Positions 20,653 to 50,468 of a stretch of DNA of 64,000 nt are shown piece by piece. Within the stretch, counting starts at the first letter, position 1; each line of letters begins with the position of its first letter. Under the pieces are notes generated by a model that made no database searches, had not been told where the DNA came from, and saw nothing but the letters and a program-made list of their open reading frames with translations. The DNA comes from Rickettsiales bacterium. GTDB taxonomy: Bacteria; Pseudomonadota; Alphaproteobacteria; Rs-D84. The position numbers were made by a program, and so were the translations under genes. The stretch spans positions 84,978-148,977 of the forward strand of contig JAISKV010000001.1 in the NCBI GenBank assembly GCA_031260805.1, read 5' to 3'.

Positions 20653-23600
20653 GTGTATAGAAAGATTTTGGCCGTTTTTGCGGCTTTATTTCCTGTATCC
20701 GGATTTGCGAATGTCATTTATCCAGGATATAACACCGGCGATTTAATCGGCACCGGCGTCGCGACTGGCGGCAACAGCGCGATAACAGCCGCGCCGAAGT
20801 GCACTGTTGTTGGCCAGGGTTTGCAGTGCGGCGGCGATTTTGTTGCAGGCTGGAATGTCGCAAGCGATTCAGGCGCCGGATTTCAATCCGGCGGCAGCGG
20901 AATTTACTTTGACCTGTCGTACGCGGGCGTCCCCGGCGTCCCCGTCCAACCGTATGCAATAAATAACGCTACTAATTTGGCCGGGTTTCCTGCAACCGGC
21001 GCGGCCAGCACATTATACATAGACACAGACACCGGTACCGCGTATGTTTGGAACGGAACGAATTACGCCGTTGCGACGCCGACGAATACTTTGGTGGCGG
21101 CGAACAAGTATCTGGTTGCCAATTCCAATTTGATTTATATTTGGGACGCGGGGTCAAACAAGTATATTGCGGCGACACTGCCCCAGGGGATTTATAACTC
21201 TTCGTCAATAACCAATATTGAAAATATAAATGTTGCTGGCAGTTTGTTGAACGAGCAGACGCTGATTCTGGCCCCCGGTGATCATACGAATGCGACCGAA
21301 GACCGGATTGCATGGATTGGCGGCGCGATTCTGAACGGAACGCTGGACGGGAAAACATTTGACGACAATGCCGGCGGCGGCGTCGCGAATTCAAGGCTGG
21401 TGGTGGAAGCGTCCGCAATCAGCGTCGGCGGCAAGATTATAACTGATAACCAAGGATATGCCAGCACGGCCGCGTTTCCTGCGACAGGTGCTCCGGGGGT
21501 GGTGTATACTGATAATTCCGACGGCCGCCAGTATACTTATGTCGGCGGATCGTATGTCGCATATGACGGCCGGTACACAGTCGCGATTCTTAATGCTGGT
21601 GAAAAAGTCATAACCGGGACGGCACTGGGCGGGCATACCAGCGTTGCGGATTCCGAATCGATGTCGCTGAAAACATTGAAGGGCGACATCACGCTGGGCG
21701 GCAGCGTTTGGAACAATGCCTATGTTGATGCATCAGGCAACATTGTCATTCGCGACGCGACAAATGCAGGCAGCGTGCAATTGGGGCTGGACAGCGCGGC
21801 GAATGTGAATATAACCGGCGATGTTGTGAATTTTGGCGGACACACGAATATCCGGGCGGGCCAGAATATTGCAATCAGCGGAAATGTTTCCACCAATTAC
21901 GGCACGGTAAATTTCTCGGCAATCGCAGGGCGGATTTTGATGGGCGATGTCGCAATCGGCGGGTCTTCGCAGTCCGCGGTATTTTCGCAAGTCGGAATCG
22001 GTGGGATTACCGCCGGGAACATTGATATTTCCAACGGATACATGACAGTCAGCGGGGCGGACTTTATAACGGTCGGAAATATTTCCAATACGACCGGTGT
22101 GGTGAACGCGATGGCGACCAGCGTGATTTCCGGTAAAAAATTAACCGTTGGCGGCATTGTCAATAATTCCAAAGTTGACATGAACCTGGCATCGGGCGGC
22201 GGATCGGATCTGGTTGTCGGCGGGAATATTTGGAACAACACGAATGACGGTCTGACGGCGTCGGATGCGACGGCGTCGCGCAACTATGGAAATCTGTCTT
22301 TGGCGTCAGCCGGCAATTTATCCGTATCCGGTGATTTGGTTAACTTTGGCAAGACCGCGATTTTATCCGCGGCCCAGGGAACAACGATAACCGGAAATAT
22401 CCTGAACGGATACGGCGCGATGTCGCTGGCGTCGGCTGCTGGGAAAATCCAGGCCGGCAACATTACGCAAACCGGCGGCGACAGCCTGGTCTTGACGCAG
22501 TCGGGAGTCGGCGGAATCACGGCCGTAAATGTTAACATAACGACCGGATACGCGCAGTTGAATGCGGCTGATTTCATGTCTGTCGGAAACATTTCCAACA
22601 CAACCGCGACCAGTTTGGCGAATAATACCAGTTTTATTACAGGCGCTGTATTGACTGCTGGCGACATTACACAAAATTCCGCCAATAAAATGGTTGTTTC
22701 GGCAGGCGGAAATATAACGGCGGGCCAGATTGCGAACACCACTGGCGTCATGGACATGACGACCGCGGCAAATGGAATTCTGAATGCTACGGGCGTAAAT
22801 GTCGCGGCGGGCCGCTTGACAATTGCGGGCGCGAACAGCCTGATGCTGGGGACCGGCGGATTGACAGTTTCTGGAAACGCGTATCTGAACGGCGGCGGAT
22901 CAACGACAGCCGGAGATCTGTATCTGACGAACAATGCGATGACAATTCAGACTGCGGGCGATATAGTCTTGGGCGGCGCGTTAAGCCTGGCGTCCGGAAC
23001 CGGACTGACAATCGGTACTGCGACAGGGGTTTATAAAACGGTGTCAATCGGCAGCATTTCCAACAACGGCGTGTTAAGTTTGCTGGATAGTTCATTTAAT
23101 ACAATCGGCGTTAGCGGCGCGATTACCAGCGGCGGCACCGCCGGAAACAATGCGTCTGTGTCTGCGTATTCTTATAACAGCGGCGGCGCGGCGGACAACA
23201 TAACGGTTGGCGGCACGATTACCAGCGGCCAGTATTCCAGCATAACGCTGGTTGCGGATGACAACCTGACGACCGGCGATGTTCTGTCCAATAATTCTTT
23301 GTCCGGCAATGTTTTGTTGCAGGCGAAAAATGCCAAAATCGCAACCGGAAATTTGCAGAACAATGCGGCGGCCGGAAAAACATTTGTGGCTGATGCGTAC
23401 GGCGATTTGACGATAACCGGAAATGTGAACAACACAGGGGACTTTATGCGGCTGACCGCGGGCGGCAATATCGCGGTTTCCGGCACGATGAAGAATGACC
23501 TGAACACCGGAAAATTATATATCGGGGCGACGGGCAAGGGCGGAACCAACATAGGGAACTTTGCATTGACGGGCCCCAGCGTTTCATCACTGACGATTTC

Positions 23601-26600
23601 CGGCGGCGATGCCAGCCATGCAGGACTGGAAAACAGCGGGACATTCTATGCGTTGGTGTCGGGCGCGACGACAATTGCGAACGGCGTCAGCATTGCGGCG
23701 ACCGCAACGGAGTTTTTCCTGGATACAGGAACGCTGTCCATGCCGTCCGCAGGCGCGAACGGATTGGAAAACCTGTTGCAGAACAAGATGAACTATTTCA
23801 CCATGATTGTGCGCAACGGCGATGTTTCCGGCGTTGGAATCACGAACGGAACGCGCAACGGGGCGACGGTTGAAAATGCAAGCGCGGCGATGCGGGTGGA
23901 AGCGGACAATATAGTTCTTGCCGATGCGGTAAAGAATGTCGGATCTGATTTGATATTGAAATCAGACGGCGCGACGGGAATAACAATTGGCGGGGTGCTG
24001 TACAACGGAACGCTGGATGGCGTTGCGGCGGTCGCGAACGCGGCGCAGAAAAATGCAAGTCTGACTGCATCCGGAACGATTTCAATCGCGGATACGGTCA
24101 GGAATTTCGGATATCTGGTTGTCAATGGGACGAATGCTGTGAACTTGGCTGCGATTGACAACAATGGCACCGCGCGGGTAGAGTCTTCATCCGCGGCCGG
24201 CGCGATTACAGGAACGACGATAACGAATAACGGAACGACAACCGGCGCGTGCAACGCGGGCGACGGTACAAACTGCGATTTGTATATCGTGGCCCGGGAT
24301 GCGAACTTTACCGGCGCATTTGCCAGCGGCAGCGGAAACGCGCTTATACAGACAACTAACAGCGCGGCGGTTGGCGGCGTATCGCTGACCGGCGGTCGGC
24401 TGGATATTGACGCGTACAACGGATTTGCATCAAACGGCGCGATTGCGGTGAATTCTGGCAGTCTGAATTTCAGCAGCAATACGACCACCGCGACCGCGAC
24501 AGGAAATGTCGCGACGGCCGGTGATATCAACGGCTGGCAGAGCGGCGTCGCAACCGGCGGCAGCATGAATTTCGCAATCGCGACCGGAAATACTGCGAGT
24601 TTCAGCACAACCGGGAATATTGCAGCCGGCGGCAACATTGTTGCGAACAGCGCGAATGCGATAACGCTGCAACTGAACGGGACCGGCGTTTCGGCGACCG
24701 GGGATATCTTGGCGCAGAACCGCGGCATCTTGAAGTTCGGCCCGTCCGTCGCCAGCATAACCGGAGAATTGATGAGCACGGACGCCAACGCGACGATTGA
24801 TTGGTCGGCGGTCGGCAGCGGCGCGACTGTTGCAATCGCGCAGTTGAACGATTTGGGCAAAGTCATTGCTGGCGGCGCGTCGCTGACAGCAGACGCGTCC
24901 GTTGACAACGCGATAAATATTGCGAATGGAGTTTTGATGAACGGCGCCACCAGCGGCGGTTTTAACATCCTGTCCAACAACTACACATTGCGCACGACGG
25001 GCGTAGGCGCGGATATCAAAATTGCTGCGAACGGCGTGAATGTCGCGGCATCCAAGACTTTGGCTCTGGACAGCGCGGACCGGATTGACATAACCGGCAC
25101 GACGACGAATGCCGGCGCGTTGACATACAACGCCTTGAATGAAATCGCGATTGGCGCGATTGCGAATACCGGAACGCTGAACGCTGCGGGCAAGTCTGCG
25201 ACCGGCGGAGCGGTTTCCAACACCGGCGGCGGGAACTTGAATATTGCGACGACAAACGGGGTTATAGCGTTCGGCGACTTTACAAACAGCGCGGCGGCCG
25301 TGCTGAATTCCGGAAATCAGAATACGACGCTGGGCGCTGTTGTAAACAATACCGGCGGCAATATAACACTGACGGCAAAGCAACTGAATGTGAATTCTAT
25401 CGCGTCCGCGGCGGCGTTCGTGGTTAATTCCGCGACGGTCGCGTCATCCGGCGCGATAACGGCGACCGGAAATTTGGGTCAAGACAGCGGCACCGGGACA
25501 TACGCGCTGCAATTCAAGACGAACAATCTGAATGTCGCAGCATCCGCATTGAATGTCAGTGGAAACTTTGTCGCGAATAACAATGCCGCGTCTTACACTA
25601 TTGCGAATGACGCGACCATAACCGGCGGCCTGACGATTGCCACGCCTGCGGAAACGCGATTGACATCCAGCACTGGAAACATCGCATCCGGCGTCATAAC
25701 CAACAACGGCAAGCTGGAACTTATTGCGACCGCCGCAGCCAAGAAAATAGCGACCGGCGCGATTTCCAATTCCGCGACCGGCGATCTGGCGATAAACACG
25801 ACGCGTTTGGAATCAGGCCTGGTTGCGAACAATGGCGTCGCCAATATAACAGCGGCGACCGCGACGGTTGCAGGATTGAACAATGCGGCTGGAAAAATGC
25901 GCCTGTCCGGTGGTTCGCTGGAATCAACTGGCGCGGTTTCAATCGTCGGCCAACTGGCCCAGAATCAAATCTGGAATTCATTCGCGGCCGGCGTTGACAT
26001 CATGTCAAATGATTACGCGATTAATTTGTCCGGGACGAACTCCGCATCGTCAACGCTCACGATTTCCCAAGGAATTGACCAGAATTCCGGCCTGATGACA
26101 TTAAAGACAACGGTGCTGAATATTACAGACGGCGGCATCGCCGCGAACGGCACTGTCCGGATTTCCGCGAATGATCACTCGTCGGATTCCGTGCCGGCAT
26201 CCGCCGCAGACCGCTATCCCTGGCTGACCGCGAATATCGTTGGCAATGTTTCCGAGAATGTTCAGTTCTTTGGCCTGTCCGATGCGACCATCAACGGAAA
26301 TTATGCGTTTGGCGATAATTCAATATTGTCTTTGGCCATATTGCCAAAGTCGGTGGAAAATTATTTTGCGACAGTATCGCTGGCGAACGACAACACTCTG
26401 GGCAATATAACAGATGATGCGGGCGGCACCAGCGCGATTGTCAATGTATCTGGCAAGTTCACGACGGATATAACGGGCAGCGTGTTCAGCCTGCCATCGT
26501 TGCCGGGACCGAACACCCCGCTGACAGCGGGCCAGGTTGGGTTTGTCTTGAACGATATCGTTGACGCGGGCACGGCGGTAAAACTGTTGCACGCGGACGG

Positions 26601-28086
26601 CGGTATCGAGGAAGACGGATTGCAAATGCGGAATTTGGTTGTCCGGTTTTGCAATGCGGACGGATCAAAGTGCTTTAATTATCTTGACGCGTTCCGCAAA
26701 ATGCCGGAAGATATCTTAACATCATCCAGCCCGCTGGCCGGATCAAATTCCAACAATGATCTGCCCGCGTACTTGACGCTGCGCGATACGGACGGCGATA
26801 ATGTTGCGGACACGATGTACGCAGTGTTTGACCCGCGCTTTGGCGGCCCGGTGGAAGTCTTTAAGATACAGCCGATTGTGGAAGCGGATCCGACGCACAC
26901 CCGGGGCGAGTACTTGTCCGCCGGCGCATTGGACGACATGGTGGAAGACGGCGTGCGCGACGCGGGATTTCACTTCCGCACACCGATAGAGGCGATCCCG
27001 GTCGTGTTCGCCGGGACGAATTTGCAAACCGCCGCGTCCGAACTGTACAACCGCATGGACCAGTATCAAATCGGCCGCGACAATGAAATATTGTCCCGTT
27101 TCAGCAAACTGTTCCAACAGCGCGAACTGGGCCAATTGTCCAACCAGATTAACTTGAACGAGCATGCGGTATTCCGCAGTTTCGAGAATCGCCTGTTCGA
27201 AGAATTGGATTGGGTGCGCAACCGCAGCCGCAACAAGTTCTGGGTTGACGCGGACTTTTCCAATTTCACGCACAGCGATTATGCGGGCGAAGCGGACATC
27301 GCGGGCGAACGGTTCAGCATTTCGTTCGGCGCGGACAAGCGCGTGTCGTCGGACCGCATCATCGGAGTTGCCGGACATGTAAACCAGTCTAGTTCCAACT
27401 TTACTGATACGATGAACCTGGGATACATGGGATGGGACATTGACGGCCGGGTCGTGACGGATGCGTCTGATCTGAACTTTGGCCTGGGCGCGTACTTTAT
27501 TGATACCCGCGGGGAGACATCAAAGATGTACGGGAACTTGTTCTTGGACATTCATTCACTGGAAATCAACCGCACCCAGAACTTTGTGAATCCGATTTCG
27601 GGCAGCGCGGTTTCTATATCATTGATAACCGAATGGGGAATCCTGCACGAACTGCTGGGCGAATATATTATTGGAAACGCGTACGCGCGCGGCGGGTACA
27701 ACTTTGGATTTGACATGACGACGCGGGCGGAAGCGGCCGATTACCAGAATCTGCAATCGCGCGGCTATGGAATCCTGACGCCCGGGTACAGCCTGCGGTT
27801 CCAGCGCAAGGTTTACACCAGCAACTGGCTGCAAATTCGTCCGCGCGTGGATGTCGGGCTAGAGTATGATCTGCTGGGCATCGGCAACGACGCGCAGTAT
27901 AAATTCGCGGTCGCGGACAATTATACCAAGTACAAGGTTGAAACCGATCCGTTGTGGATGAATGTTGGCGGCGGGATAGAGTTTGTCGCGGCGGATGGAA
28001 TTGGCGTTGCATTGGACTATAAATATTCGTACAATCAGGAAATGCGGGTCCACAATGTGAAAGTCGGCGGCCATTACAGGTTTTAG
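20653..28086 (+). CDS. Giant autotransporter-like surface protein (2477 aa)
   Basis: GTG start and signal peptide; repetitive Asn/Thr/Gly beta-helix-like passenger; C-terminal beta-barrel pattern (FWVDADFSNF...FSISFGADKR...VKVGGHYRF), final Phe. Confidence 0.85.
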   Translation: MYRKILAVFAALFPVSGFANVIYPGYNTGDLIGTGVATGGNSAITAAPKCTVVGQGLQCGGDFVAGWNVASDSGAGFQSGGSGIYFDLSYAGVPGVPVQPYAINNATNLAGFPATGAASTLYIDTDTGTAYVWNGTNYAVATPTNTLVAANKYLVANSNLIYIWDAGSNKYIAATLPQGIYNSSSITNIENINVAGSLLNEQTLILAPGDHTNATEDRIAWIGGAILNGTLDGKTFDDNAGGGVANSRLVVEASAISVGGKIITDNQGYASTAAFPATGAPGVVYTDNSDGRQYTYVGGSYVAYDGRYTVAILNAGEKVITGTALGGHTSVADSESMSLKTLKGDITLGGSVWNNAYVDASGNIVIRDATNAGSVQLGLDSAANVNITGDVVNFGGHTNIRAGQNIAISGNVSTNYGTVNFSAIAGRILMGDVAIGGSSQSAVFSQVGIGGITAGNIDISNGYMTVSGADFITVGNISNTTGVVNAMATSVISGKKLTVGGIVNNSKVDMNLASGGGSDLVVGGNIWNNTNDGLTASDATASRNYGNLSLASAGNLSVSGDLVNFGKTAILSAAQGTTITGNILNGYGAMSLASAAGKIQAGNITQTGGDSLVLTQSGVGGITAVNVNITTGYAQLNAADFMSVGNISNTTATSLANNTSFITGAVLTAGDITQNSANKMVVSAGGNITAGQIANTTGVMDMTTAANGILNATGVNVAAGRLTIAGANSLMLGTGGLTVSGNAYLNGGGSTTAGDLYLTNNAMTIQTAGDIVLGGALSLASGTGLTIGTATGVYKTVSIGSISNNGVLSLLDSSFNTIGVSGAITSGGTAGNNASVSAYSYNSGGAADNITVGGTITSGQYSSITLVADDNLTTGDVLSNNSLSGNVLLQAKNAKIATGNLQNNAAAGKTFVADAYGDLTITGNVNNTGDFMRLTAGGNIAVSGTMKNDLNTGKLYIGATGKGGTNIGNFALTGPSVSSLTISGGDASHAGLENSGTFYALVSGATTIANGVSIAATATEFFLDTGTLSMPSAGANGLENLLQNKMNYFTMIVRNGDVSGVGITNGTRNGATVENASAAMRVEADNIVLADAVKNVGSDLILKSDGATGITIGGVLYNGTLDGVAAVANAAQKNASLTASGTISIADTVRNFGYLVVNGTNAVNLAAIDNNGTARVESSSAAGAITGTTITNNGTTTGACNAGDGTNCDLYIVARDANFTGAFASGSGNALIQTTNSAAVGGVSLTGGRLDIDAYNGFASNGAIAVNSGSLNFSSNTTTATATGNVATAGDINGWQSGVATGGSMNFAIATGNTASFSTTGNIAAGGNIVANSANAITLQLNGTGVSATGDILAQNRGILKFGPSVASITGELMSTDANATIDWSAVGSGATVAIAQLNDLGKVIAGGASLTADASVDNAINIANGVLMNGATSGGFNILSNNYTLRTTGVGADIKIAANGVNVAASKTLALDSADRIDITGTTTNAGALTYNALNEIAIGAIANTGTLNAAGKSATGGAVSNTGGGNLNIATTNGVIAFGDFTNSAAAVLNSGNQNTTLGAVVNNTGGNITLTAKQLNVNSIASAAAFVVNSATVASSGAITATGNLGQDSGTGTYALQFKTNNLNVAASALNVSGNFVANNNAASYTIANDATITGGLTIATPAETRLTSSTGNIASGVITNNGKLELIATAAAKKIATGAISNSATGDLAINTTRLESGLVANNGVANITAATATVAGLNNAAGKMRLSGGSLESTGAVSIVGQLAQNQIWNSFAAGVDIMSNDYAINLSGTNSASSTLTISQGIDQNSGLMTLKTTVLNITDGGIAANGTVRISANDHSSDSVPASAADRYPWLTANIVGNVSENVQFFGLSDATINGNYAFGDNSILSLAILPKSVENYFATVSLANDNTLGNITDDAGGTSAIVNVSGKFTTDITGSVFSLPSLPGPNTPLTAGQVGFVLNDIVDAGTAVKLLHADGGIEEDGLQMRNLVVRFCNADGSKCFNYLDAFRKMPEDILTSSSPLAGSNSNNDLPAYLTLRDTDGDNVADTMYAVFDPRFGGPVEVFKIQPIVEADPTHTRGEYLSAGALDDMVEDGVRDAGFHFRTPIEAIPVVFAGTNLQTAASELYNRMDQYQIGRDNEILSRFSKLFQQRELGQLSNQINLNEHAVFRSFENRLFEELDWVRNRSRNKFWVDADFSNFTHSDYAGEADIAGERFSISFGADKRVSSDRIIGVAGHVNQSSSNFTDTMNLGYMGWDIDGRVVTDASDLNFGLGAYFIDTRGETSKMYGNLFLDIHSLEINRTQNFVNPISGSAVSISLITEWGILHELLGEYIIGNAYARGGYNFGFDMTTRAEAADYQNLQSRGYGILTPGYSLRFQRKVYTSNWLQIRPRVDVGLEYDLLGIGNDAQYKFAVADNYTKYKVETDPLWMNVGGGIEFVAADGIGVALDYKYSYNQEMRVHNVKVGGHYRF

Positions 28087-30256: not shown

Positions 30257-30475
30257 TATTACCACTACCCCGCCGTTACGCGGCACCCCTTCCCCGGGCC
30301 CCGCGAAAAACGAAGTTTTTCGTGGGTGGGTCCCAGCGAAGGGGATTTGTCCCGACTTCGTTTCAATAAATATAATTTTATTGTGTGGCACAAGCCAAGT
30401 AATTCCCCTTCGCTTAGTGAAGGGGTGGCATTACGCCGAAGCGAAGCGTAGGCGGATGACGGGGTAGTGGTTCAT
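30257..30475. repeat. Family B MITE-like element
   Basis: ACCACTACCCCG...CCCGACTTCGTTTCAATAAAT...CCCCTTCGCTTAGTGAAGGGG...GACGGGGTAGTGGT. Confidence 0.85.
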
Positions 30476-31532
30476 GATTTCCAGTCCAAAAAACGCCGTA
30501 ATAATTATATTGACAAAGTTATTATTTTGTGTAAATATGTATCGCCGCATAACCCAAGGGGGCAGTGATATGGGAATATTTTGGAATAAAGAGATTAAAT
30601 TAAAACAGCCGGGAATTTCAGAAATAGACCGCTGTTTGTCAATCATACGCGATGATAATTGTGAGAGATATGCAGAACATTCGGCCGCGTATACATGGAT
30701 CACGGAAAATATGAATATTTTCCGGGCTGTCCAGCCCCAGGATAAAAAGGTTCTGGCTGTGTGCGCGGGGGGGGGTGATTCGTCTTTATTTTTCCGCGCG
30801 GCGGGTGCGCAATCCGTTGATGCCTTTGATGTGTCGCTGTTTCCGAAATATGCGGCAGAGTTAAAGTACGCAGCACTGCGCCGATTTAATCGCGAACAAT
30901 TCTTGAAATTTTATAGAATTGATGATTTTGATTTTGCGCAGGAATCCGGTCAATTATTCGCGCCATCGGGATATCGCAAACTTCGTAATGATTTGTCTGC
31001 CGATGCGCGCCATCTGTTTGATAAATGCGCGAAAAGCAGCGATCTGTGCAGCAAAATTCTGTCTCCGTTCGGCAAATATCGTTTGGAAGAAAACGAGTAT
31101 CTGCAAGACAGTGATGGGTACGAAATTTTGCGCCGCGCCGCAATGGACGGAAATCCGAACTTTATATGGTCGGACTTGAATGAATTGCCGCATCATTTGT
31201 CAGATTCTTATGACATAATTTACTTGTCAAACATTCATGCATTAATGTGCCATGATACCAAGCGCAAGGTTGCGGAATTGCGCGCATTAAAGAGACACCT
31301 GAATCCTGGCGGCATAATTATGGCAAATTATTTTTACAGCGTTGTTGAAAATTCATGGTCGCGGGATTTTGCGAAATCAATCAGGATTTATGGCGATATG
31401 AATGGAAAAATGGGCCAGTACGCGCCATACAAAAATGAAAGGTATGGGATGATGGAAGAATTTATGAGATTATTCCTTGATATGCGCGCATACGACATCC
31501 AAGTTATTTTGGACAAAGAAAATCTGAAATAA
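30474..31532 (+). CDS. SAM-dependent transferase, DUF3419/BtaA-like; contains a G9 tract
   Basis: KKVLAVCAGGGDSSLFFRAAGAQSVDAFDVSLFPKYAAELKYAALRR..REQFLKF; later LSNIHALM and LNPGGIIMANY; start may be internal (MGIFWNKE). Confidence 0.7.
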   Translation: MISSPKNAVIIILTKLLFCVNMYRRITQGGSDMGIFWNKEIKLKQPGISEIDRCLSIIRDDNCERYAEHSAAYTWITENMNIFRAVQPQDKKVLAVCAGGGDSSLFFRAAGAQSVDAFDVSLFPKYAAELKYAALRRFNREQFLKFYRIDDFDFAQESGQLFAPSGYRKLRNDLSADARHLFDKCAKSSDLCSKILSPFGKYRLEENEYLQDSDGYEILRRAAMDGNPNFIWSDLNELPHHLSDSYDIIYLSNIHALMCHDTKRKVAELRALKRHLNPGGIIMANYFYSVVENSWSRDFAKSIRIYGDMNGKMGQYAPYKNERYGMMEEFMRLFLDMRAYDIQVILDKENLK

Positions 31533-31559
31533 AAAACGCGGCGCAGCCGCGTTTTTTTT
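31530..31559 (+). terminator. Rho-independent terminator
   Basis: aaaaaacgcggcgcagccgcgttttttt. Confidence 0.85.
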
Positions 31560-31810
31560 AGGTATAGGGTTTGAGGTGTGAGGTTTAAGGTTTGGAGAGC
31601 GGCCAGTTCCCCCGCATCGCCGTTCGCTGCGCTCCGGCTCTGCGACCCCACCCCAAAACGCCGATGGCGTTTTGACCCGCCCTCAGGGGGCGGGTAATCA
31701 ACACCGAGTTAACTGGGGTGGGTAAGAGTTCGGAGTAAATTACCCGCCCCCTGAGGGCGGGTCAAAATTTTCACCAGAAAATTTTGTGGTGGGGTTGCAA
31801 AGCGTCTTCT

Positions 31811-31976
31811 ACCACTACCCCGTCAGCGGCTGCGCCGCTGCCACCCCTTCGCTTAGCGAAGGGGAATTATCCCGACTTCGTTTCAATAAATGTTGTTTTA
31901 TTGTGTGGCATAGGCCGTCAAATTCCCCTTCGCTAAGCGAAGGGGTGGACGCCGCAGGCGGACGGGGTAGTGGTGA
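31811..31976. repeat. Family B MITE-like element (full copy)
   Basis: ACCACTACCCCGTC...CACCCCTTCGCTTAGCGAAGGGG...CCCGACTTCGTTTCAATAAATGTTGTTTTATTGTGTGGCATAGGCC...CCCCTTCGCTAAGCGAAGGGGTG...GACGGGGTAGTGGT. Confidence 0.9.
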
Positions 31977-32026
31977 ATCAGACATTCATACTTGACAAAT
32001 CAGTATGTTTGTATTAAATTTCCAGC

Positions 32027-33073
32027 ATGAAGCGCAAAGAACAAAAACCTTTGATAAGTGTAATTATCCCTGCATACAATATTGAAAAGTGGATCGCGCC
32101 ATGCGCTGCTTCGCTGTTCGCGCAGAAAATGTTCAAGGAAACCGAGATTATTTTTGTTGACGACGGCAGCACTGACAACACCGGACGCGAGATTGAAAAA
32201 GTCTACAAACGCGCAAAAAAGAATGTTGTCATATTAAAAAATCAACGAAATTACGGCGTGTCCGCCGCGCGAAACCAAGCGATTGATGTTGCGCGTGGGG
32301 GGGGGATTATGTTCCTGGACGGGGATGATGAAATTGGTTATAATACCAATCACTCGTTTGATACCGGGTATCTTGGAAAATTCTGGGCCCCGCTGACCAA
32401 TCCTGAAATCAGGTCGGACATCGTTATCGGAAATATTGTTCAAGCCGGCGACAAGCGGGACTTTGCATTCAATCAATCCGCTATTTATGAAAATCACATT
32501 GTATCCGATACAATCAAATTGCTGAAATATGTGAACCGGCGCGTCAGCGCGTGCGCCACGCTTTATAATGCCGACACGATAAAATCACACAATCTGAAAT
32601 TTGACACAAGTCTTACTTATTTCGAGGACACCAGTTTTATTTCCAACTATATTCTGAAAATGCGGGGAAATTGCGCGGTATTTATTTCAGACGCAATTTA
32701 CAAATACAATTATCGCGCAAACAGCGCGATGCATCGCCTGAAATCACACAGCGAAGAAGAAATGCGCCGGTTGACATACATCAATAATCAGATGATTTAT
32801 TATCTGAAAATGATTGACTCGTGCGAGAAAAAGTTCGGACCCAGATCGCTGCCCGTACAGTTGTTCATGCAGAAAATGACCAAGAAACGCCGCGATATCA
32901 TAGAATTTTCGGAAAAATATCCAAATTCAAGGGATTTTTATTTATCGTTCTTGCAGTATTTGCCGGATGTTTGCCGCGGCTGTAATAAGCGGGGCTGTGA
33001 TAAATGCAAAGATTATGATTCGGAAAGAATGCTGATAACCGGCATCAGTGATCGGTTGTTGCGGGTAAAATAA
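32027..33073 (+). CDS. Family 2 glycosyltransferase; contains a G9 tract
   Basis: PLISVIIPAYNIEKWIAPCAASLFAQ...EIIFVDDGSTDNTG...NYGVSAARNQAID.ARGGGIMFLDGDDE. Confidence 0.93.
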   Translation: MKRKEQKPLISVIIPAYNIEKWIAPCAASLFAQKMFKETEIIFVDDGSTDNTGREIEKVYKRAKKNVVILKNQRNYGVSAARNQAIDVARGGGIMFLDGDDEIGYNTNHSFDTGYLGKFWAPLTNPEIRSDIVIGNIVQAGDKRDFAFNQSAIYENHIVSDTIKLLKYVNRRVSACATLYNADTIKSHNLKFDTSLTYFEDTSFISNYILKMRGNCAVFISDAIYKYNYRANSAMHRLKSHSEEEMRRLTYINNQMIYYLKMIDSCEKKFGPRSLPVQLFMQKMTKKRRDIIEFSEKYPNSRDFYLSFLQYLPDVCRGCNKRGCDKCKDYDSERMLITGISDRLLRVK

Positions 33074-41420: not shown

Positions 41421-42638
41421 TTATTTTTTCTCAAATTTTCTGGCGCGGTCCGTCAGTTGCGCGTGCATGTCAAAGTTGCTGGCGCGGCCCAGATCCACGA
41501 TGTAATCCAGATATTCCAGATAGTCAAAGCCGAAATCTTTTTCATCAAAGATAAAATTATTGTCCTTGAAAAACTGGCGCGTGAACGGCGTGTCGCCGAC
41601 CATGTGCGGGCAGAAATTCTGCTGCGTCGTGCTGTATTTCCAGACATCGCGCGATGCGGAGATGTAAGTGGCGTTGATTTTCTTTAATTGATTCAGCGCG
41701 CATTGCCGGCCGTTTCCTTCCATATGTCCGCGCTCGAACACCAGCAGTTCCGCGCCGTCCCTCATAAACATTGAAAAGTGCAGCAGCGTTCCCTGGACGC
41801 ATGCCAGGCTGTCCGCATCCATGACGACGCGGATTTGATCTGCAAACGACATTGTTTCCGGATAGATGACAGTGTACCCGTTTTTCGCAAAAATTCCTTC
41901 CAGCGATTTTTCGCCGAAAGTCATGATGCCTGCTTTCAGCCGGGTGCGCGACAGGTAAACTTTTTTTATCGGAAACTTTGGCTTGCCCCCCCCCGCGCGG
42001 ACTTTGTCAACGATGCGGTTGTAAATGTCGCGCATCAGCGGATGGACATAGTGCGTCTTGCCGGGAAACCGATTCGCAAAGTTATAAAACTGCGCCGGCT
42101 GGATCACAAAAACAGTGTCAAAAGAAACAGGCTTGTGTATGAACAGGATTCTGTCCAGCGGGATTCCGAACAGCGCGACGATATTTGCGAATTTCCGCGC
42201 GGCTTCCGTTTCCAATAAAAACGCGATTTTTTTATCCCTATACTTTTCATCCAGCAGCGGCCACAGGTACGACAAGACATCGGTCAGAATATGTCCGAAA
42301 TGATTCGGCATTGATCCGCAGTAAATCACATCTTCGCCCATGTGCGGAATTTTTCCGCCGTTGTCGCCAACCTGCTTGTCCAGCGTCGCGCGGTCCGGCG
42401 ACACCAGCAGCGTTCCGCGCGTGATGAATACCGATTCGGCGACTAGCTGCTTGTTTGCGTCAAACACGCCGCCGGCCGCGGTTTCGTTCTGCTTTAATAC
42501 CGCATAAGGTGCGATGATGCCCTTTGGCACAGCCTTTATTTCCAATGGCTCGGTCCGGATATAATCAATGATTGCGTTTTTATCAAACCATTCGCGCATG
42601 TCCGGATTGTATTTGTAAAAGTCTTTTGGCAATTGCAT
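41421..42638 (-). CDS. Glycosyltransferase family 61 (DUF563-like); contains a G9 tract
   Basis: NHFGHILTDVLSYLWPL; KKVYLSRTRLKAG; SFADQIRVVMDADSLACVQGTLLHFSMFM. Confidence 0.85.
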   Translation of the reverse strand: MQLPKDFYKYNPDMREWFDKNAIIDYIRTEPLEIKAVPKGIIAPYAVLKQNETAAGGVFDANKQLVAESVFITRGTLLVSPDRATLDKQVGDNGGKIPHMGEDVIYCGSMPNHFGHILTDVLSYLWPLLDEKYRDKKIAFLLETEAARKFANIVALFGIPLDRILFIHKPVSFDTVFVIQPAQFYNFANRFPGKTHYVHPLMRDIYNRIVDKVRAGGGKPKFPIKKVYLSRTRLKAGIMTFGEKSLEGIFAKNGYTVIYPETMSFADQIRVVMDADSLACVQGTLLHFSMFMRDGAELLVFERGHMEGNGRQCALNQLKKINATYISASRDVWKYSTTQQNFCPHMVGDTPFTRQFFKDNNFIFDEKDFGFDYLEYLDYIVDLGRASNFDMHAQLTDRARKFEKK

Positions 42639-42654: not shown

Positions 42655-43389
42655 CTACATCTTAAAATCTTCGCCCAGATAAACCTGGCGGACCATTTTG
42701 TCCGTCACGATTTCAGGCGTTGTTCCGTGCTTTAATATTTTCCCGTCGTGCAAGACATAACTGCGGTCGGTAATGCCCAGCGTTTCCCGGACATTGTGAT
42801 CCGTGATGACCACGCCCAGCCCCCGGTTCTTTAACTGCGACACCAGCGTCCGTATGTCGTTCACGGCAATCGGATCAATTCCGGCAAACGGCTCGTCCAG
42901 CAGAATGAATTTCGGATCCGTCGCCAATGCGCGCGCGATTTCGGTGCGTCGCCGCTCGCCCCCGGACAGCGCGGTCGCGGGGCTGTGCCGCAGGTGCGAT
43001 ATTGAAAATTCGTTCAGCAATTCGTCCAGTTTTCGTTCCCGCTTTTTTCGCGATGGTTCAACCACTTCCAGAATCGCCATGATGTTCTGTGCGACGGAGA
43101 GCCCTTGGAATATGGAATTTTCCTGGGGCAGGTATCCGATGCCCAACGCCGCCCGCTTGTAGAAAGGCAGCCGCGTGATGTCCTGGGAATTAAGCATTAT
43201 TTGTCCGCCGCCCGCCATGATTTGCCCGGTTATGCAATAAAAAGCGGTCGTCTTGCCGGCGCCGTTCGGCCCCAGCAGCCCGACAGATTCGCCCTGGGCC
43301 ACGGTCAGCGAGATGTCGCGCAGTATCTGCCGGCGGCCGTACGCCTTGGACAAATGATTGATGGTCAGCGTGCTGGCATTGTGTTTCAT
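42655..43389 (-). CDS. lptB: LPS export ABC transporter ATP-binding protein
   Basis: LLGPNGAGKTTAFYCITG; YLPQENSIFQGLSVAQNI; ALSGGERRRTEIARALA; LLDEPFAGIDPIA. Confidence 0.96.
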   Translation of the reverse strand: MKHNASTLTINHLSKAYGRRQILRDISLTVAQGESVGLLGPNGAGKTTAFYCITGQIMAGGGQIMLNSQDITRLPFYKRAALGIGYLPQENSIFQGLSVAQNIMAILEVVEPSRKKRERKLDELLNEFSISHLRHSPATALSGGERRRTEIARALATDPKFILLDEPFAGIDPIAVNDIRTLVSQLKNRGLGVVITDHNVRETLGITDRSYVLHDGKILKHGTTPEIVTDKMVRQVYLGEDFKM

Positions 43390-43901
43390 AACTGAATCTC
43401 CATGCTGTTCGTTCTGATTTTGTCGCCGTTGCTGGAATCTATGCGGACATCGCCGACCAAGTATACTTTTTTTGTCGCGGTGTTCATTGTTCCGCCATTC
43501 GCGCGAATATTGTCTGTTATTTTTTGATTTCCGGCGACGCGGACGATGCGCGCGGTCAGTCCGACAAAATTTATAACGCTGTCGCTGTCATAATTTTTTG
43601 TCGCGGACCGGGCGCGGATATGCACAGGATTTTTGTTTTGATCCAAGCCCGAAAATTCCGCGTCAGTCATCTGGAATTGATTCTGAACAATGCTGGGCAG
43701 ATTGTCCAGCGACAGTGGCGTCCACAGCATGTTTTTAACGAAAAAAGGACTGGCGGCCAGCAGCGTGAAAAACACCAGCCCCCAGCCTGTGAAAATGAAT
43801 TGCCACAGCCGCTGCAAACGCCGGTGCCGGTTCAGGATAAGCAAAGAACGCGAACTTTTCGCCATAAATCGCAGTCTAGCCCACAAAACGCTCGTTTTCA
43901 A
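43386..43901 (-). CDS. lptC: LPS export ABC transporter periplasmic protein LptC
   Basis: N-terminal TM, LptC-like region, 4-nt overlap with lptB. Confidence 0.8.
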   Translation of the reverse strand: MKTSVLWARLRFMAKSSRSLLILNRHRRLQRLWQFIFTGWGLVFFTLLAASPFFVKNMLWTPLSLDNLPSIVQNQFQMTDAEFSGLDQNKNPVHIRARSATKNYDSDSVINFVGLTARIVRVAGNQKITDNIRANGGTMNTATKKVYLVGDVRIDSSNGDKIRTNSMEIQL

Positions 43902-49760: not shown

Positions 49761-50468
49761 TTATGCCAGATTCAGAAAATCTTTCAATACTGCATCCGGA
49801 CGATCAATATTTTGGTTGATTTCCAGATTAGAATCAACAATCGGGGCAGCGGATTGCGCTGTATCGCCGCAGTATGCGGCCAGGTCGGGTTTTATCGTAT
49901 CTTCGCTGACGCCGTCTATTAATCCATTTGTGCAACCCAATGATTGTGAAGCAGAGTTATTTTGCAGTTCGCAATTAATCGCGCCGTGTCCGCCAACACA
50001 ATATTTGGCGAGCAATGCCCCCCCCTGATCCAAGGTGTTGGTAAATTCGGCAGACCGCTTGTTAATTTGTCCCCGTTCTGTTTCAGTCAAAGCGGCGGAT
50101 ACGGGTTGCTGTGTATTGGTCTGGACTGGTGTGTGGGCAACCGTGGTGGTGGTTGGCGTTGTGGCGACCCCTTTTTTCCGGGCATCGTACGCATTGTCAA
50201 TCTGCTTTAATTCAGCGCAGAATGTTTTATTGTTATCTTTGCCAGCGCCTTCGTTATCGCAGGTATCCTTGGTCAACAGGTCTTTTGCACCGCCGCCAAC
50301 AGTCTTGGCAGCATTGCTAATCGCGCCGCCGGCTGTTTTGGCCGCGCCGCCAAGTCCCGACATAGCCCGTTGAATCAGGTTTGGTTTTTGGGCTGGCGTG
50401 GTGTCTTCGGCACGCGCAACCGGTAAAATTAAAAGATAAAAGATAAAAGATAAAAATATTTTCTTCAT
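49761..50468 (-). CDS. Secreted hypothetical protein; contains a G8 tract
   Basis: Signal peptide MKKIFLSFIFYLLILPVARA. Confidence 0.7.
   Translation of the reverse strand: MKKIFLSFIFYLLILPVARAEDTTPAQKPNLIQRAMSGLGGAAKTAGGAISNAAKTVGGGAKDLLTKDTCDNEGAGKDNNKTFCAELKQIDNAYDARKKGVATTPTTTTVAHTPVQTNTQQPVSAALTETERGQINKRSAEFTNTLDQGGALLAKYCVGGHGAINCELQNNSASQSLGCTNGLIDGVSEDTIKPDLAAYCGDTAQSAAPIVDSNLEINQNIDRPDAVLKDFLNLA

Follow-up and report, generated by a model that had tools for sequence, protein, structure and literature searches.

In Campylobacter, 53% of the phase-variable poly-G/C tracts are 9 bases long and 26% are 10, and strains carry 5 to 81 phase-variable genes per genome when tracts of 7 or more are counted (PMC6321876). 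In C. jejuni, which is without functional mismatch repair, indels arise at rates from 1e-4 to 1.6e-3 per division (PMC8355987). Length changes can also fall within a promoter, as in porA of Neisseria meningitidis, for which work cited in PMC3899988 places a poly-G tract between the -35 and -10 elements. For homopolymeric tracts at the 5' end of genes, such as that of Listeria inlA, a survey reports an excess of poly-A/T (Orsi et al. 2010, PMC2831843).

Here we describe a G9 tract inside a DUF3419-like gene, located in a 64-kb stretch of DNA (the window, by which we mean the whole stretch analysed) from a genome of 729 kb in 15 contigs with about 51% G+C. We read it as a contingency (phase-variation) tract, through which slipped-strand mispairing would turn the gene on and off, and we give this reading a probability of about two in three. 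It is based on the effect of the tract on the reading frame, the genome-wide excess of such tracts, the classes of genes that carry them, a set of out-of-frame secreted paralogues, and similar repertoires in relatives. Doubt arises from the mid-gene tracts all being in frame, from a tract in ligA, from the presence of MutS and MutL domains, and from a single assembly being the basis.

The genome resembles Campylobacter in carrying G9/G10 tracts within genes for glycosyltransferases, methyltransferases and surface modification (LOS, capsule and flagella in Campylobacter), a peak of tract lengths at 9, truncation by frameshift and a similar number of tracts per genome. It differs in its G+C content, its probable alphaproteobacterial affiliation, its mismatch repair domains, the in-frame state of the scored mid-gene tracts and the ligA tract, and switching is here proposed from the sequence. 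The porA arrangement is paralleled in some relatives of the same order, where G9 occupies the spacer between -35 and -10 (at 45 places in genome G048 alone), but these candidate promoters precede many genes, including dapB, and were not found in the genome studied here. As with inlA, the length of a start-proximal homopolymer would decide whether a surface protein is produced in several leader-type genes (contigs C13, C14 and C15), although the excess here is of poly-G/C and the tract in the window lies mid-gene. Compared with DUF3419/BtaA proteins (PF11899), the predicted product has its GGGD loop at the expected place of a SAM-binding motif, but it is much shorter and matches partially, and nothing in it points to betaine-lipid synthesis.

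The tract and its neighbours in the window

The gene (30570-31532, forward strand) encodes a 320-aa DUF3419/class I SAM methyltransferase-like protein, with AAGGGGG ahead of its ATG. The G9 tract (30767-30775, forward strand) is in frame within this open reading frame, where the codons GCG GGG GGG GGT give A-G-G-G ahead of GAT in the motif VLAVCAGGGDSSLFF. The original prediction had placed the tract in the VCAGGGDSSLF codons of a DUF3419-like transferase and expected a one-base slip to truncate the protein early; both sequence and frame were as given, and single-base changes left 97 (-1) or 69 (+1) aa. Two-base changes left 68 (-2) or 98 (+2) aa, so that the frame stays open only at the assembled tract length.

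We propose that slipped-strand mispairing during replication would lengthen or shorten the tract by one G in a minor fraction of cells. Either single-base change would stop translation within 30 codons and shut off the methyltransferase-like enzyme, while the reverse change would restore it, and a clonal population would thus mix cells with and without the enzyme. This supposes an appreciable rate of length change in the gene, and an enzyme that is active when the frame is open, presumably on an envelope component.

The assignment to DUF3419 was upheld by a Pfam match above the gathering cut-off (E 2.2e-7; 30.8 against 28.2 bits), which was partial (profile positions 26-119 of 385) and short of the full-length domain. 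Generic methyltransferase profiles matched the second half of the protein (190-261) with scores under their cut-offs. A PDB search returned no relative better than E 0.02, a scan of the genome contig collection with the protein found no relative, and an AlphaFold single-sequence model (pLDDT 37) was too poor to judge a Rossmann fold.

A promoter-like TTGACA - 16 bp - TAAATA, read by eye, precedes the gene (30510-30537, forward strand), and a terminator-like hairpin, AAAAAACGCGGCGCAGCCGCG followed by T8 (31533-31559, forward strand), would close the transcription unit. The adjacent gene, which has its own promoter-like site, encodes a 348-aa GT2 family glycosyltransferase (32027-33073, forward strand; Glycos_transf_2, E 8.6e-27) and carries a second G9 tract (32297-32305, forward strand) in AR-GGG-IMFLDGDD, directly before the acidic donor motif. 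One-base slips in this tract leave 100-122 aa of the 348. Intergenic repeats of the form CCACTACCCCGTC...AAGGGGAAT and similar were observed around these two genes (30267-30475, 31607-31780 and 31812-31980), with short matches to this repeat type recurring elsewhere in the genome. Just upstream of the tract genes, a 2477-aa open frame (20653-28086, forward strand) with a signal-peptide-like start had no Pfam match.

The third run of nine (41986-41994; C9 on the forward strand, G9 on the coding strand) lies in a reverse-strand gene for a 405-aa GT61 family glycosyltransferase (41421-42638; Glyco_transf_61, E 3.2e-13), of which one-base slips leave 223-360 aa. This gene adjoins LPS-export-like genes, an ABC ATPase (42655-43389, ABC_tran) and an LptC-like gene (43386-43901, LptC). 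These three were the only G/C runs of exactly nine in the window; a single run of eight (50018-50025, G8 on the reverse, coding strand) lies in a signal-peptide-bearing gene (49761-50468), which one-base slips would truncate. The claim that all three runs of nine lie within glycan or envelope genes thus held for the two Pfam glycosyltransferases, while the third carrier is DUF3419/methyltransferase-like. Independent tracts in the DUF3419-like, GT2 and GT61 genes would generate combinatorial variation of a surface glycan or lipid.

Long G/C runs across the genome and the state of their carriers

For G/C runs at least 300 bp from contig ends, counts at lengths 6 to 14 were 39, 6, 2, 10, 3, 1, 2, 1 and 1, unlike A/T runs, which fell off smoothly with length. 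Ten of the 18 runs of at least nine were exactly nine long, with a tail reaching 14, against 0.1-3 such runs expected from Markov models whose fitting excluded the long runs. Within coding sequence we observed 19 runs of at least nine, a few of them near contig ends (contigs C8, C10, C14 and C15; the count of 18 omits contig-end poly-G), where synonymous codon redraws of the 635 called genes gave 4.15 per genome. Runs of 6, 7 and 8 showed the opposite, with 28, 4 and 2 in coding sequence versus 135, 30 and 11 in the redraws (34 versus about 176 in total). A depletion of runs of 6-8 together with an excess at nine and above indicates that incidental runs are purged and long ones kept, the pattern expected if tracts are maintained and not if they follow from composition. 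For the window, the original estimate of about 0.4 runs per 64 kb at 25% per base was about right; Markov models of orders 1-5 fitted to the genome gave 0.01-0.26 and the synonymous redraws about 0.36. The excess of the three observed runs over chance is borne out, and genome-wide it is unambiguous.

The carriers outside the window included a WbsX/RgpF glycosyltransferase, a PAP2 enzyme, a lysozyme-TPR protein, dCTP-deaminase-like, PIN and HTH proteins, LigA, an adhesin whose sequence looks like that of a trimeric autotransporter, and a secreted family with the motif TGPLAAKSYVDxA. Signal peptides were found in 10 of 19 carriers versus 158 of 616 other genes (p 0.012), a weak enrichment that includes two doubtful calls. 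The tract lies inside the signal peptide in the autotransporter-like gene (G10) and right behind it in the PAP2 gene (G13), in frame in both cases. The predicted leaning of carriers towards envelope and glycan functions was supported in part; besides the surface and glycan genes, the PIN and HTH genes and ligA carry tracts, and the one in ligA shows that tracts are not confined to dispensable surface genes.

In the TGPLAAKSYVDxA family, a poly-C or poly-G tract is located between the start codon and the signal peptide. Copies were observed at the ends of contigs C14, C15 and C3, at the start of C10, and at C13:35002-35013. Those on contigs C13, C14 and C15 were out of frame as assembled, and another tract length opens a complete secreted protein of 180-328 aa. 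Two leaders of this family were 98.6% identical over 140 bp, yet their tracts differed, reading C15 (fifteen cytosines) in one and C9TC3 in the other.

All ten of the scored mid-gene tracts, including that of the DUF3419-like gene, were in frame. With random phase only about a third should be, which points either to an advantage of the ON state or to tracts that are slow to move. The alternative that survives best, although we regard it as unlikely, is that the tract is effectively fixed, with mismatch repair holding its length, so that Gly-Gly-Gly is left from a past expansion and no switching occurs on relevant time scales. Besides the in-frame tracts, this would agree with the MutS and MutL domains encoded in the genome and with the G9 tract in the gene for the NAD-dependent DNA ligase LigA (C6:17247-17255, locus L014, QAGGGLEIRGEV), an enzyme that is normally essential. 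Against it stand the joint depletion of runs of 6-8 and enrichment of runs of at least nine, a combination that slow neutral drift would not be expected to produce, the out-of-frame secreted genes that open at another length, and coding tracts of 10, 11 and 13 besides 9.

The ligA tract appears specific to its lineage, since a search of 39 other genomes of the family, with 30 ligA loci fetched including the present one, yielded no other with a run of nine in the gene. A LigA scan of the genome contig collection gave nothing closer than a 41% match, filed under 'Bacilli'. In a relative, G025, G9 was observed about 100 bp upstream of ligA. Loss of mismatch repair as the cause of the tracts was considered and rejected for the genome studied here because MutS and MutL domains are present; searches of G025 (86% complete) gave no hits to either protein.

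Poly-G tracts in related genomes

In 60 relatives, which comprised no further species of the genus, we counted between 0 and 149 runs of at least G9 per genome, among them 149 in G048, 116 in G050, 43 in G025, 41 in G042, 31 in G013 and 29 in G015; on the same count the genome studied here had 27, contig ends included. Runs of exactly seven were often very few, and in some relatives nearly all tracts were exactly 9 long. Many of the tracts in G050, G042 and G038 were located 17-53 bases after a start codon, ahead of a signal-peptide-like stretch, and nearly all the scored ones among them were out of frame.

A second position was the promoter spacer. In G025 (loci L092-L111), 15 of 21 tracts were preceded by a TTGACA-like -35 and immediately followed by a TANNNT -10, an arrangement found around 0.1-0.6% of runs of 3-5. 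A pattern scan of 96 genomes of the order for exact TTGACA-N-G9-TANNNT sites gave 45 in G048, 12 in G050 and none in the genome studied here, and the reversed pattern had no match. Among the candidate TTGACAAAA-N-G9-TANNNT promoters (G048, loci L072-L091, and G025), most of the listed spacers measured 15 or 18, and a spacer of 17 was very rare. Two genomes of different families, G025 and G048, each had a candidate promoter of this type ahead of a dapB-like gene. Orthologous tracts were sought between G048 and G050 for a comparison of lengths, and only short promoter matches were found. At five loci in G042 (L144, L146, L156, L158 and L168), an intergenic inverted repeat enclosed a G9 run, as in tccatccccctaG9taagggggatgga; these are possibly terminators with a poly-G loop.

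The genomes also bear on whether slippage might be non-heritable, with RNA polymerase or the ribosome slipping on G9 to set a ratio of full-length to truncated product in every cell. G9 is plausible as a slippery sequence, and tracts of nearly uniform length would fit such a role, but the many spacer tracts of relatives are beyond the reach of RNA or ribosome slippage and carrier tracts in the genome studied here vary from 9 to 16. We therefore consider this explanation improbable.

Homologues of the DUF3419-like protein were found in 17 of the 60 relatives at about 25-32% local identity, the nearest having 20-24% identity over the alignment (about 30% locally). None of the nearest had GGG at the tract site, where relatives showed VL-T-V-AGSGD or VL-S-I-CAGGD, a motif conserved among them. 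Variants of the form VL[TA]xAGSGD and VLSICAGGD at this place make it reasonable to read the loop as SAM-binding, as had been proposed. The protein is one residue longer than those relatives between VL and GD, which indicates that the third glycine is not needed by the fold. By this alignment the glycine run would not be an ancestral requirement, and it fits in-frame growth from a shorter G run. It is more improbable still that the tract is a product of chance or composition, i.e. a glycine-rich loop that happens to use GGG codons. Such loops are typical of SAM-binding motifs and GGG is not rare among the glycine codons of the genome (3361 of 17097), but relatives have GSG or GG with one residue fewer, and the run counts exceed expectation both in the window (3 versus 0.01-0.4) and in the genome (18 versus 0.1-3).

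Least probable of all is an assembly or sequencing artefact (a homopolymer miscall or two-colour poly-G), since, despite suspicious poly-G at several contig ends, the G9 tract lies 30 kb into the window with unique flanks and a frame that is open only at the assembled length. The contig-end runs of 27-63, observed on C3 (C3:18764-18869, G34 and G63) and C12 (C12:186573-186599, G27), are probably two-colour sequencing artefacts.

The best RecA matches on plasmids were mostly alphaproteobacterial, and the tract-bearing genome is probably alphaproteobacterial. The assembly yielded no 16S core, and a GroEL motif search had no match. We take the group to be the RF32-type gut order; a literature search pairing RF32 with phase variation found nothing, the name RF32 itself being our guess.

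Meaning for the lineage

The mechanism of switching by tract length is already known; the apparent novelty lies in the lineage and in the scale, together with the number of tracts and the use of promoters in relatives. We tentatively suggest that this order of Alphaproteobacteria, with tiny genomes (0.5-1.1 Mb), a probable gut habitat and mismatch repair, may have evolved some of the densest repertoires of poly-G switches known, placed within glycan genes, before signal peptides and, as G9, in the spacers of dozens of promoters (that of the housekeeping gene dapB in two families). Up to 149 tracts of at least nine in about 1.1 Mb compare with 5-81 genes in Campylobacter, a comparison that is not like-for-like because tracts of at least 7 were counted there (PMC6321876).

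Should the tracts switch, a lineage that is uncultured and genome-reduced would vary its surface by the stochastic device of Campylobacter, in a genome a third to two thirds the size. Metagenome reads that already exist would suffice to check the prediction of switching, with no need of a culture, and it carries a caution, as genes that seem 'broken' in such genomes may be merely switched off. With mismatch repair domains present, switching tracts in this lineage would offer a natural experiment on whether contingency loci depend on the loss of repair.
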